DNA of 64,000 nucleotides from Bryoerythrophyllum caledonicum (taxonomy: Eukaryota > Streptophyta > Bryopsida > Pottiales > Pottiaceae). The position numbers and the translations under genes were made by a program. Below, one piece after another: positions 35,045-44,423 of this stretch (within the stretch, counting starts at the first letter, position 1; every line of letters begins with the position of its first letter). The notes beneath the pieces are model-generated. The model had not been told where the DNA came from. It ran no database searches and saw only the letters and a list, made by a program, of their open reading frames with translations. The stretch covers positions 1,645,773 through 1,709,772 of the forward strand of contig OZ020524.1 of assembly GCA_963971425.1 (NCBI GenBank), written 5' to 3'.

Positions 35045-35056
35045 GATTATATCCAT

Positions 35057-35193
35057 TAGAAGAAGAAGAATGTCGGTCCCCGTAGGAGGGCCGGCGTGAA
35101 TAAAGTGTCCATTCGTTCCACCACTAAGTCCATGCCCACCGGGCATGGGTTAGTAGTATGGAACTACTTCCCCCTTTTGAGGGTAGACACTAT
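35057..35193 (-). repeat. LINE 3' terminal region with CTT-repeat tail
   Basis: On the minus strand this begins GTGTCTACCCTCAAAAGGGG-GAAGTAGTTCC and ends in four CTT units. The same segment is found at 50,580-50,710 and, more diverged, within 22,574-22,849. Conservation of this block across copies suggests it is the 3' end bound by the reverse transcriptase. Confidence 0.75.
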
Positions 35194-35283
35194 GTACCCA
35201 GTAACAAGTAGCCAAGGACAAAGGACTATAGGTCCCAAAGGTCTTGAAAAGGGGGGCATGTACGGTGAAATGCAGAGGTTTGT

Positions 35284-36243
35284 TTATGAAGGGGGGTCGG
35301 AAGCGTCAGGAAGGGGTTGGTTGTTTTCAAGTTTTCGTTTATGTAGGAGTATTGACATAGCATGTTGAATTGCAATAATGTTGATATTTGAAAAGGTGGT
35401 TTTCATCGAAATGATGGGGATTTTGAATATTTCTTCAAGGGTTGTGAATGAGGGAATGAAGGTCATGGCTCTAGCACCGGCGGTAATGACAATGAGGGGG
35501 TCTACTTTCCATCCAAGTGCTTGAATATCATTAAGAACTGGTTGGTATTTATTTGTTTTGTTTGCAATAGTGTCCGGAAAAAATCTATCATTGCAATATG
35601 TGAATTCAATAAATTGAATAGTGAGACTAGGGTCCATGTGTTTTGGTGGGGGGTCTTTGTATGATAGTCCTCTAACACAAAGTAGGTCGGGTTTGAATTT
35701 TGCATTACAATGGCATCTTTGAGTGCAACATATGCATGGTAGTAGCCAAGGAGGGACTATATTTTCTTGTGGGTTGTCATTAAAGGTTCCGGCATTCATG
35801 AGAATGAAGCAACGGGATTTGGTCGATGATACGAGTAGTTTACGAATTGCCCATTCAGCTCTGTTGTGTCTTTTGACAATTAATGAGTGTATATGGGGGT
35901 TTTGGCATTTGAGTATGACATGTAGCCATGTGTCCGGTTCCGTAGTTTTGCAAATTGGACATGTTATTGTAGGAAATCTTTCTATTCCAAAGAAGAGTTG
36001 TTTGCGGGCATTTCCCATGTATTGTCCCGTGCGGAATTTGATTAGGCAAGTGATTTGTGGATCCGTGATTATGGGCTTTTTCCAAAAATTTGTGGACAAT
36101 TCGTTATGAATGTTTGGGTTGCCGGTCCATTTATCAATATTGGGGAAGTTTTCTATAAGTTTTTCCAGGTTATTTACAAGGTCATGTTTTTTGAGGTATT
36201 TGTCCAAGAATCGTATGGGGCCTTTATCGGGGGTTTCGCCCAT
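35284..36243 (-). CDS. LINE ORF2 C-terminus: CCHC zinc knuckle and restriction-like endonuclease
   Basis: An open frame of 319 codons. Residues 95-113 (CPICKTTEPDTWLHVILKC) form a C-x2-C-x9-H-x4-C knuckle. Residues 184-233 read KPDLL, a spacer, IEFTYCND, then KTNKY: the order KPD - (D/E) - K..KY is that of the restriction-like nuclease of R2-type LINEs, which also follows a CCHC knuckle. R2-type and Dualen elements use this nuclease for target nicking. In plant L1 elements the protein ends soon after the knuckle, so this tail is unusual. I infer the nuclease from motif order only. Confidence 0.65.
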   Translation of the reverse strand: MGETPDKGPIRFLDKYLKKHDLVNNLEKLIENFPNIDKWTGNPNIHNELSTNFWKKPIITDPQITCLIKFRTGQYMGNARKQLFFGIERFPTITCPICKTTEPDTWLHVILKCQNPHIHSLIVKRHNRAEWAIRKLLVSSTKSRCFILMNAGTFNDNPQENIVPPWLLPCICCTQRCHCNAKFKPDLLCVRGLSYKDPPPKHMDPSLTIQFIEFTYCNDRFFPDTIANKTNKYQPVLNDIQALGWKVDPLIVITAGARAMTFIPSFTTLEEIFKIPIISMKTTFSNINIIAIQHAMSILLHKRKLENNQPLPDASDPPS

Positions 36244-36299
36244 AGAGGGCCATTCATATCTATGAAAGTAATATGGGGTGGCATGGGCGTATTCGTATG

Positions 36300-41770: not shown

Positions 41771-42479
41771 CAAGGTGGAGGGGAAATGTAGGCGGGTGGC
41801 GTGGGGGGGTATGTGTAAGCATGAATTGGTTCAAAGCATCTAAGAGCTTCAAGGATAAGATTATGCGGAAAGTAGGGAAATTTTAGTTGTACTTCATCAG
41901 GGGAAGGGGGTGGGATTTGGCTATGAATAAAGTTATATAGGTCATTGTGTAGAGAGATTTTGTGTTCAAGAAGGTGTTGGTTTTCTTCTAGGAATTTGGT
42001 GTATGGGTGGAGTGTATCTATATGTCTTTCAGGGGGGTTATGTAGAGAGGATAGGGTGTTTAATAAAACATTTGTCCAATGTGTTGGATTTGTGTTAGTA
42101 GAACGTTGGTCAATGATATTGTTGCATACGTCTATTGAAGGGTGGAGGGTGGTAATTATGGCGAATAGGATATGTGCGGGTGGATGGTTATGTTTTTGAT
42201 GTATGTTGCGGGAAATGTTGGGGTAGAGGGTGGAATAAGTTTGGTGTAATATGTGATTATATTTAGAAGTGGCGAAAGGTAGATGCTAGATGTTGATATT
42301 CGGGTTGGAATTTTATAGGGTTTGGAATGAAGTATATTTTTGATAATCTTTTGTATGTTTTTGGATGGTTATGGAAGACATTTGGCATTGGGCCAGGGTT
42401 AGTTTCTATGTCTCCGCAAAGTATAAGTATTAGTTTGCAATGAGTGATGTTTATGGCTACTGGTGGGAGGGATGTGGAG

Positions 42480-42588
42480 TGTTGTTGTTGTTGTTGTTGT
42501 TGTTGTTGTTGTTGTTGTTGTTGTTGTTGTTGTTGTTGTTGTTGTTGTTGTTGTTGTTGTTGTTGTTGTTGTTGTTGTTGTTGTTGTT
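42480..42588. repeat. (TTG)36 microsatellite inside the LINE
   Basis: An uninterrupted TTG/TGT array of about 36 units; in the LINE sense (CAA)n. It lies between the ORF1 stop (42,856) and the ORF2 endonuclease. The frames of Leu, Cys or Val that it creates on the plus strand are artefacts. Confidence 0.97.
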
Positions 42589-42855
42589 TCCTTTTTGTTT
42601 TTTCTTTCTTTTTTATTTATTTTTAAATATTTTTTGCATATAGTATAAATATATACTTTAGAGTATATGTATTTTTTGTTTTTGTATTTTTAGTATAGAA
42701 TTATACTTTTGAATACGTAGTATAAGTAGTATAAATATTTACTATTAAATATATAGATACCACCACGTTGTGTGTCAAAATTAGTTTGACGTGTCCATCC
42801 CTTCAATGGATAATTGCACTCTTTGGCTGGCTTCTTCTTCTTCTTCCATGATGGT

Positions 42856-44423
42856 TTATATGATGTTCTTCCTGAGGGAAGTCATCTCACTTCTAAGAAT
42901 CTTTTTGGTGTTTTCTTGCACCATATCAGCATAGTTTCTAGCTTCTTCAATGATTTCGCCTTTCATTAAAGCCATCTCTTTTCGGAGCTCCGCAATAGTG
43001 TTTTGTGTCCCTTTGCTAACAACCGTTTCCACCATTTGGTTGAGGTCTTGTGCACAAATTTGGTTTGGAGCATTCTCCATGGCGATAACCGCATTCATAG
43101 CCACCGAGTTCACATCCGTCAAACCTAGTCTTTTAAGTTCATCCGCACTTGGAGGGTTTGAGCCATCAAGGCTTCTCGGATGTGGAGTGAAATCGACGTA
43201 TTTCCCATGAAGCTCTACATTTTGTTTCACATGCATCTTATACGCCGCATCATTGAGACATTGTACATTACATGTTCCAACATGTTTTCCATTCTCCAGT
43301 TTGAAGTATAAGCTAACAATATTATTTGCTCCGAGCTTTGATTTCAATCCTTCCTCTAGCACCTCAGTAGTTTCAATTTTACTAAGATTTTTCGCAATTA
43401 AAATCAATGCATTTTTCTTCAATTTGTCATCCTCATTCATTTTGCCTTTGCTCACAAAGTTTGGCACAAAAATCTCATTTGCAAACGCTACTTTGTTGTT
43501 CTTTACAATGGCGGCCATTTTTGGAGATGTAGTTTTAATCCATGCAAATTCATTGGTTGCCTTTTCTCTATTCCAGTAATTTCAAAGTTAAATCCTCTAG
43601 CAAAACTCTCTCTTTCTATTTCCTCATGCATGTTAAACCATTCTTTGTTCCCTAGAGTTGGACCTGTCACTTTCACAGACAGATTGTTAGATGAAGCCAA
43701 TGGATCATATGATTTACATACCTTGCCTTTGTGGGGAATTCCCTCATTTAGAGTGAGGATGAACGATTTCACCCCTTGAAGAAGAGCACGCCCATCTACT
43801 TTCGGATTCATCAAATGAAGCTTGATTGTGCCACTCCAATTCTCAGATTTGTGGTGACAAAAAATAGCAATTGGTTCACCCAATAGTGTACCAAGCGGTA
43901 TCTCCAACTCCTTAAGCTTTTCCACAACCATTGTGTGGATGACTTTTCGTGCACATATTTGATCTCCAAGTTCAAAGTTAGTTGACACTTGATAATCTTT
44001 AGCAAAACCATCCTCACCAACCACTACTTCACTTGGAACTTGTGTCAAGTTAAAGTGGTTACCTTTCACTCCATTTGGCCTTGTTGAAGGCCACTCCTCT
44101 TGTGCAACATAAGGAAAGGAGGGTAATGCTTCTATGTCAGCTTTAGCATGAGCCTCACTCAAGCCTCGCAGTTTCAGATCCTCCATGCTTAGAGCTGGAA
44201 TTTGGGATTATCCTTTGCTCTTTGCAATGGTGTTGAGGGAACAAAACCCTAACCGGTACTCAAGTCTAGGCACCGTGGATGCCTTGGCCTTTTGCTGACT
44301 AGGATGATCCAAAGCATCCAAATCACGTTTTTGAGCAACATTCATGTCAACATCCGATTCCACCACAACATTGTTGAATGTGAGTTGCTTAATAATAGAT
44401 GCAGCGTTGCTTGAGTGAGACAT
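42856..44423 (-). CDS. LINE ORF1 protein (one stop, one frame change)
   Basis: Starts MSHSSNAASIIKQL at 44,423 and continues, through one in-frame stop near 44,208, into MEDLKLRGLSEAHAKADIEA (44,186); after a frame change near 43,560 it continues to 42,856, about 500 codons in all. The last third holds an RRM-like stretch (ALILIAKNLSKIETTEV to ELHGKYVDF) and a C-terminal coiled coil (MALMKGEIIEEARNYADMV). There is no CCHC knuckle and no resemblance to the DUF4283 ORF1 of angiosperm L1. Likely an RNA-binding chaperone of the element. Confidence 0.65.

Follow-up and report, generated by a model that had tools for sequence, protein, structure and literature searches.

A decayed copy of a high-copy land-plant LINE that very probably follows the Dualen/RandI dual-endonuclease plan

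Does a land-plant retrotransposon carry two different endonucleases? The question is raised by a 64-kb stretch of Bryoerythrophyllum caledonicum DNA (the window, within a 437-Mb assembly), on the minus strand of which the original prediction placed a long interspersed nuclear element (LINE) at 35055..44423, with both an apurinic/apyrimidinic endonuclease (APE) and a restriction-like endonuclease (RLE) in the manner of Dualen/RandI elements. Our analysis indicates that the window very probably holds a dead copy of a high-copy land-plant LINE of approximately 13 kb, with young members and a Dualen/RandI dual-endonuclease plan. The minus strand from 35,058 to approximately 44.5 kb is occupied by a large LINE in decayed form, the upper limit of which is probably near 47.7 kb. 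Position 44,423 of the predicted span proved to be the methionine that opens MSHSSNAAS in the first open reading frame (ORF1), although the coordinates as a whole were somewhat short.

The element residues were located on the minus strand, and the APE, reverse transcriptase (RT), RNase H, CCHC and KPD motifs that had been listed were all found there at the places given. The APE region (40961..41749), 87% identical to copy L014 and with a sub-cut-off match to Exo_endo_phos_2 (4.4e-4), contains IQETKL (41,630-41,647), CRDFNRD (41,246-41,266) and NSDHFP (40,997-41,014). Two window frames match RVT_1 (2e-8 and 5.4e-12) over the RT (38809..40134), which has its YADD(L) at 39,328-39,342. A broken RNase H domain (36331..36859) is represented by weak, sub-cut-off pieces at 36,748-36,331. 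Next comes a CCHC knuckle (35,905-35,961) and then KRHN, together 35857..35961, in alignment with the CCHC-RHN of R2, followed by the core of the R2-type endonuclease (35539..35694; KPDLL at 35,680-35,694, IEFTYCND at 35,587-35,610 and KTNKYQP at 35,539-35,559, placed by hhalign against the R2 endonuclease). The copy ends in a (TTC)4 tail (35058..35070) that its aligned relatives share. The second frame (ORF2) is split over about a dozen pieces, and two catalytic places are altered relative to the better copies, GDFN to RDFN in the APE and DGSF to HNSF in the RNase H. The element is nonetheless not a chance resemblance, because its broken frames match RVT_1 and the Pfam family PCIF1_WW and its DNA is 87% identical to copy L013 across 7.6 kb. 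A 2A motif, a PCIF1-like domain and a chromodomain-like stretch, described below, had been overlooked in the original prediction.

A search of the host genome for further copies, which the original prediction had proposed, uncovered a high-copy family with an open ORF2 in its better members. One RT frame picked up 4,093 first-look candidates; 150 of them were scored and proved to match, and by our count approximately 50 of these lie within open frames of at least 2,400 codons. A search with PF12237 gave 2,614 candidates, and all 150 that were scored exceeded the cut-off; many of these matches fall in 3,087-codon frames with an identical score, as after a recent burst, and the same search gave no signal in 14 control genomes. 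The C-terminus of a diverged copy yielded 8,411 candidates (105 scored and matched). These candidate totals are first-look figures, not copy counts. The copies read comprise ten relatives of the window copy (L009-L018), each a 9.9-kb stretch in which ORF2 is open, five copies of a second clade (L031-L035, with ORF2 uninterrupted over the sequence obtained in L031 and L032 and L033-L035 carrying a frameshift or stop) and one copy of a third clade (L051). Open ORF2 lengths span 2,480-3,087 codons over the clades: 2,583 and 2,491 residues in relatives of the window copy, 2,881 in a further copy, 2,480 in L051, and 2,908 residues read from one member of the family with 3,087-residue frames.

Throughout, ORF2 runs from a poly-Q/N/T tract through the 2A motif, a unique N-terminal part, APE, a connector, RT, thumb and the chromodomain-like stretch to the PCIF1-like domain, RNase H, CCHC, RHN and KPD..E..K..KY. 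Domain identity between clades is 50-81%. Over the computable pairs, the ratio of nonsynonymous to synonymous substitution rates (dN/dS) was 0.04-0.25, with 0.12-0.25 for the PCIF1-like and chromodomain-like region and 0.04-0.15 for the other domains; pairs with saturated dS yielded no value. The domains, both nucleases among them, are therefore under purifying selection, and the claim of two different endonucleases in one LINE is borne out by open sister copies that possess both. Six copies of one subfamily are 99.8-100% identical along 2.5-3 kb of the 5' side, so its members are young. No relatives in viral contigs were confirmed in the scans made. As for the host, 30 candidates in the genome yielded 31 NAC-domain matches, some of which seem to be pairs of exons from the same gene. 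The NAC domain marks land plants, and the matches fit a host that we take to be a land plant with few NAC genes; together with L1 elements bearing zf-RVT in the same genome, they agree with the land-plant origin that had been proposed.

The claim for a second endonuclease depends on the C-terminus of ORF2. Pfam, NCBIfam and PDB profile searches gave nothing useful for this region, the sole PDB match being an unrelated enzyme (expectation value (E) of 0.6). It was compared profile-to-profile (hhalign) with the endonuclease sequences of R2 proteins whose structures are solved. With the whole C-terminus, the best local alignment set CCHC-RHN on CCHC-RHN with a probability of 4.6% (E 0.009), a value reached in 0 of 60 column shuffles (shuffle maximum 2.0%). 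The KPD half alone set KPD on KPD and K..KY on K..KY with a probability of 7.1% (E 0.005) and a score of 18.2, compared with 15.2 for the best of 100 shuffles, none of which reached the real value. Thin profiles accompany these low probabilities, as does a longer spacer, which measures 56 residues from RHN to KPD in the element and 30 in R2Bm. The full ordered motif, a pattern composed after viewing the element and R2 rows, was found in 8 of the 9 rows for the element and in 2 of the 3 for R2; 200,000 shuffles of a single element row never produced it. Among 15 copies (the frameshifted L033 being left out of this count), 14 have the RLE motifs complete; L015 has KLD, and L034 carries an internal stop. 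The Pfam search that had been suggested for the C-terminus found no match. Both halves of the region nevertheless pair with the R2 endonuclease in the correct order and register, and this register, together with the shuffles against the solved R2 proteins, upholds the reading of KPD-(D/E)-K..KY after a CCHC as the nuclease of the R2 group. We consider the C-terminal region to be a putative PD-(D/E)xK endonuclease placed after the CCHC, as in Dualen/RandI.

Two further features of Dualen/RandI, an APE endonuclease N-terminal to the RT and an RNase H, are likewise present in the element. Pfam Exo_endo_phos was found above its cut-off in L031 (7e-7) and below it in L014 (2.6e-4), and the APE motifs TWN, QETK, GDFN and SDH are complete in 16 of 16 copies. 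When an APE profile built from eight copies was compared with the PDB, the matches covered the first 45 residues; 9 of 12 were exonuclease III-type or L1-type endonucleases (E 7e-4 to 0.5), and the other 3 were unrelated proteins. The RNase H is matched by Pfam RNase_H at 8.4e-14 in L014 and 1.7e-14 in L031, with D-E-D-H-D complete in 15 of 16 copies.

The RT itself found R2 (1.4e-32) ahead of L1 (5.4e-21) in the PDB. In a tree of 12 RT sequences (six element rows, two R2 and four L1, the last being human and three from the host), element, R2 and L1 form three separate groups on branches of 100, 100 and 96, respectively. The RT of the element is thus outside the L1 clade and not firmly within plant L1, the placement that would have spoken against the original prediction. 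The likeness to R2 extends from the RT to the CCHC-RHN-KPD..D/E..K..KY endonuclease C-terminal to it; the element differs from R2 in the dispersed sites of its copies and in the additional APE, so that the RLE is not its single endonuclease, as it would be in the R2 group. To our knowledge, R2 elements have neither an APE nor an RNase H.

Dualen is the LINE group for which both APE and RLE are described, and an RNase H is also named in it (PMC4640811; this and the other cited papers are represented by the parts available to us). Dualen/RandI elements are listed for green algae alone in one account (PMC4438587), for Chlamydomonas and relatives in another (PMC8226300) and for cryptophytes in a third (PMC12747079), and are also treated in PMC3636483. 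The eight green-algal RandI families tabulated in one source all have repeat tails other than poly(A) (PMC3747384). As far as these partial sources go, the element shares with Dualen/RandI the APE and PD-(D/E)xK-type endonucleases, the RT, the RNase H and a non-poly(A) 3' repeat tail, here (TTC)n, and differs in its land-plant host. No report of a Dualen element in a land plant was found in the literature searched, outside which most subscription journals lay, and no description of a PCIF1-like part or a 2A motif for Dualen was found there. From its sequence, the element would work like Dualen/RandI. Its membership of Dualen by descent is likely, the likeness being one of published domain plan and the tree holding R2 and L1 only. 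With a PCIF1-like part altered at the active site, a 2A motif and a land plant as host, the element would be new among dual-endonuclease LINEs as they are described.

Several points weigh against this assignment. The RLE has no match above any curated threshold and its hhalign probabilities are low, the case being made by motif order, register and shuffles; kinship with Dualen is read from the domain plan, with no Dualen rows in the RT tree; and a scan of the whole ORF2 of L013 returned RVT_1 and low-complexity matches alone, with neither Exo_endo_phos nor PCIF1_WW. The Chromo match stays below its cut-off and is absent in the clade of L051. Further, no peptidase family appeared at E up to 1 in two ORF2 and one ORF1 sequences, a search that a diverged cysteine protease may escape. 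Kojima and Fujiwara reportedly described Dualen of Chlamydomonas in 2005, and a cysteine protease is said to belong to that description. Compared with Dualen as known by description, the element has a PCIF1-like domain and a 2A motif, and no cysteine protease was seen.

The alternative that survives best, which we nevertheless consider rather unlikely, is that the family forms a dual-endonuclease clade of its own, as yet without a name, in which an R2-like element acquired its APE independently of Dualen. The preference of the RT for R2 over L1 in the PDB, the long branch of its own on which it sits and the PCIF1-like and 2A parts, not found described for Dualen in the literature searched, would all suit such an origin. 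It is opposed by the core domains, APE, RT, RNase H and RLE, which are those of the Dualen descriptions, and by a repeat tail of the RandI kind in a host of the green lineage.

The Dualen/RandI plan is extended in this family by a domain between RT and RNase H that resembles PCIF1, the cap methyltransferase also called CAPAM. PCIF1_WW matched above the Pfam cut-off in the window (2.7e-10, 37093..37542) and in L014 (1.3e-10), L031 (5.6e-13), L034 (4.3e-13) and L051 (7.5e-11), which points to homology with the PCIF1 family over this common region in all five. A profile search of the PDB with the PCIF1-like region returned nine matches, with 6irx, which we take to be zebrafish PCIF1, at the top (E 0.08) and human PCIF1 (6irv) in fifth place (E 0.7); ranks two to four were chloroplast ribosomal proteins matched to another region. 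NPPF is the catalytic motif of PCIF1. In the 6irv alignment, which also runs through FGS.G and the stretch after NPPF, the human ANPPF stands opposite AHPHN (37,261-37,275 in the window). Of 29 loci read at this place, 20 have AHPHN, 5 AHPHT, 1 AHPHS and 3 single-letter variants, and NPPF itself occurs in none. The element thus differs from PCIF1/CAPAM in having HPH(N/T/S) for NPPF and in setting the domain inside a retrotransposon polyprotein. Because NPPF is replaced, the domain most likely no longer methylates; the PCIF1-like fold is probably kept, with its chemistry lost or altered. No host PCIF1 gene was seen, the best of the 150 scored PCIF1_WW matches (150 of 2,614 candidates) reaching 59 bits, and the loci inspected, 12 cut out and 6 more (L031-L035 and L057), were all element copies. 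We found no report of PCIF1 in a retrotransposon in the literature searched.

A contrary reading holds that the domain is an active cap-adjacent adenosine methyltransferase whose N6,2'-O-dimethyladenosine (m6Am) mark protects or hides the element RNA. Matches above the Pfam cut-off in three clades and purifying selection on the region (dN/dS 0.12-0.25) are what such an enzyme would lead one to expect. We regard it as improbable given HPH(N/T/S) in 26 of 29 loci, a single-letter variant in the other 3 and NPPF in none.

The neighbouring chromodomain-like stretch (37906..38049 in the window, placed from sub-cut-off Chromo matches in relatives) is tentative. Chromo was the top family in three of four pieces and second in the fourth, and in a further set it was top in four of seven and second in two, always below the cut-off (E 0.008-0.33; best E 0.0078, with 16.5 bits against 25.1 required). 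Chromodomain chains (CBX4 and CDYL) made up four of nine PDB matches (E 0.7-1.2). In the available parts of the literature, chromodomains are described in long terminal repeat elements, and the LINE Celine is described without one (PMC5348765, PMC11288735).

That the element is an ordinary plant L1 whose C-terminus only looks like an R2 endonuclease was rejected on the RT tree and the host L1 copies. A zf-RVT search for host L1 gave 428 candidates (150 scored), and plant L1 does share APE (seen by eye in L054), RT and a C-terminal CCHC with the element, with matches of 20-24 residues near the CCHC reaching E 0.004. The reading is extremely unlikely because the RT stands apart from host and human L1, because KPD..E..K..Y is absent from three of three host L1 copies across the 164-275 residues from CCHC to frame end, because the KPD half alone matches R2 with no shuffle its equal and because Pfam finds no zf-RVT on the C-terminus of the element.

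All seven full-length copies examined from the subfamily with near-identical 5' sides (L011-L013, L016-L018 and L058) have target duplications of 11-13 bp, one directly after the 3' tail and the other upstream of the common 5' end at a distance of 16-60 bases; in a control of 20 mismatched flank pairs, trimmed slightly differently, the longest common word was 9 bp. The 16-60 bases that separate the 5' duplication from the common 5' end are present in all seven copies. A (TTC)n tail closes 10 of 10 aligned relatives as well as the window copy, L018 having two TTC and a T run. Target duplications and 3'-end-only insertion are marks of target-primed reverse transcription. At 50,581-50,711 (plus strand), the window contains a 131-base piece of the element 3' end with a (TTC)n tail and AGAGAATAACT on both flanks, so that insertion of the 3' end by itself must be possible; the piece is either a strongly 5'-truncated insertion or a SINE-like (short interspersed element-like) user of the element. 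For the window copy itself, a 10-bp exact candidate duplication, GGATATAATC, lies at 47714..47723 and again three bases past the tail, at 35,045-35,054. This pair implies a copy of approximately 12.7 kb, and five full-length relatives measure 13.0-13.4 kb. The known 5' end sequence of the family was not recognized at the 47.7-kb candidate boundary; GGATATAATC is the probable 5' target duplication, situated close to where a copy of full length should begin.

Insertion into a single target, as in R2, was rejected, since the 150 scored RT copies are spread over 13 contigs (C1-C4, C6-C12, C14 and C15) and the seven target duplications all differ. A rule that the duplications start with TG held in five of five cases, one ambiguous, and was abandoned when two further copies and the 131-bp piece differed. 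Copy L011 was at one point taken to be 5'-truncated until its 5' end was located further upstream. The 5' flank of L018, at 832-2208 in the sequence joined from L018, L036 and L046, contains part of another copy in opposite orientation, a case of nested insertions.

At the start of ORF2, a canonical 2A (StopGo) motif, GDIETNPGP, lies at 42389..42415 in the window. The form DIE(T/K/Q)NPGP occurs at 17 of 17 places read (16 loci covering the place and the window) and fits the 2A/StopGo pattern (D/G/C/N)(V/I)ExNPGP. Three copies (L032, L033 and L035) have the motif twice near 1.5-1.7 kb, RRDIETNPGP and then GGDIETNPGP, with a similar stretch after each, and by eye L031 has a decayed first motif, GGDINTRPN. 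Upstream of the motif (42491..42586 in the window) is a triplet-repeat tract that encodes poly-glutamine in the window and has counterparts in L013 and L014; it is poly-Q in some copies and poly-N or poly-T in others or in other frames, and its length is very variable, yet the frame remains open. According to the accessible text of two sources, 2A occurs in LINEs of trypanosomes and others (PMC4981915), and 2A works in plant cells, with no natural use by plant viruses found (PMC12846837). As far as those parts show, our motif shares with LINE 2A peptides the canonical D(V/I)ExNPGP in a retrotransposon protein and differs in belonging to a plant LINE and lying downstream of a poly-Q/N/T tract.

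ORF1 occupies two window frames, from MSHSSNAAS to MDTSN (42784..44423), which are 53% and 62% identical to the ORF1 of L014; L014 and L051 are 59% identical. Predicted originally to be unlike the ORF1 of angiosperm L1, it has no Pfam match below E 0.03. The PDB offered just two matches, both on the helical end, a designed protein (0.003) and, weakly, vimentin (0.3), and no natural homologue was obtained past this coiled-coil match. By eye, the middle of ORF1 looks RRM-like. Elsewhere in the window, inspection by eye showed an open frame at 25,852-26,268 (plus strand) that resembles the end of a Ty1/copia element with its RT and RNase H, and exon-like frames at 10,118-14,403 and 30,044-30,559 (both minus strand) that look like parts of two genes, one for a plant coiled-coil protein and one for an RPN9-like proteasome subunit.

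We propose the following sequence of events for an intact member of the family. The 2A peptide would detach the low-complexity N-terminus from the enzyme part as translation proceeds, and the polyprotein would attach to the RNA that encodes it, at the 3' end. A nick in the first strand would come from one endonuclease, most likely the APE, and the RT would prime cDNA synthesis there. The other, the CCHC-linked R2-type endonuclease, would bind or cut the second strand 11-13 bp away, and the RNase H would take away the RNA. The PCIF1-like domain, most likely without methylating activity, might grip the capped 5' end of the element RNA, a guess that we put forward as possible rather than probable. 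A bolder picture, which we think unlikely as a whole, is that of a distinct dual-endonuclease clade that radiated in a land plant, having captured a cap-recognising PCIF1-type domain that lost its catalytic motif and holds the capped 5' end of the element RNA in cis; a chromodomain-like part would choose chromatin, so that one polyprotein would govern both template ends, the target site and both cuts.

Dualen-type elements are regarded, in the available part of PMC4640811, as witnesses of the shift of LINEs from the restriction-like to the APE endonuclease. In the PCIF1-like part, a LINE would have taken over the fold of a cap methyltransferase, and RNA capping would thereby be linked to retrotransposition; no such link was found described in the literature searched. 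With a numerous family that has young members and in which both nucleases are under selection, the division of labour between two endonucleases becomes testable.

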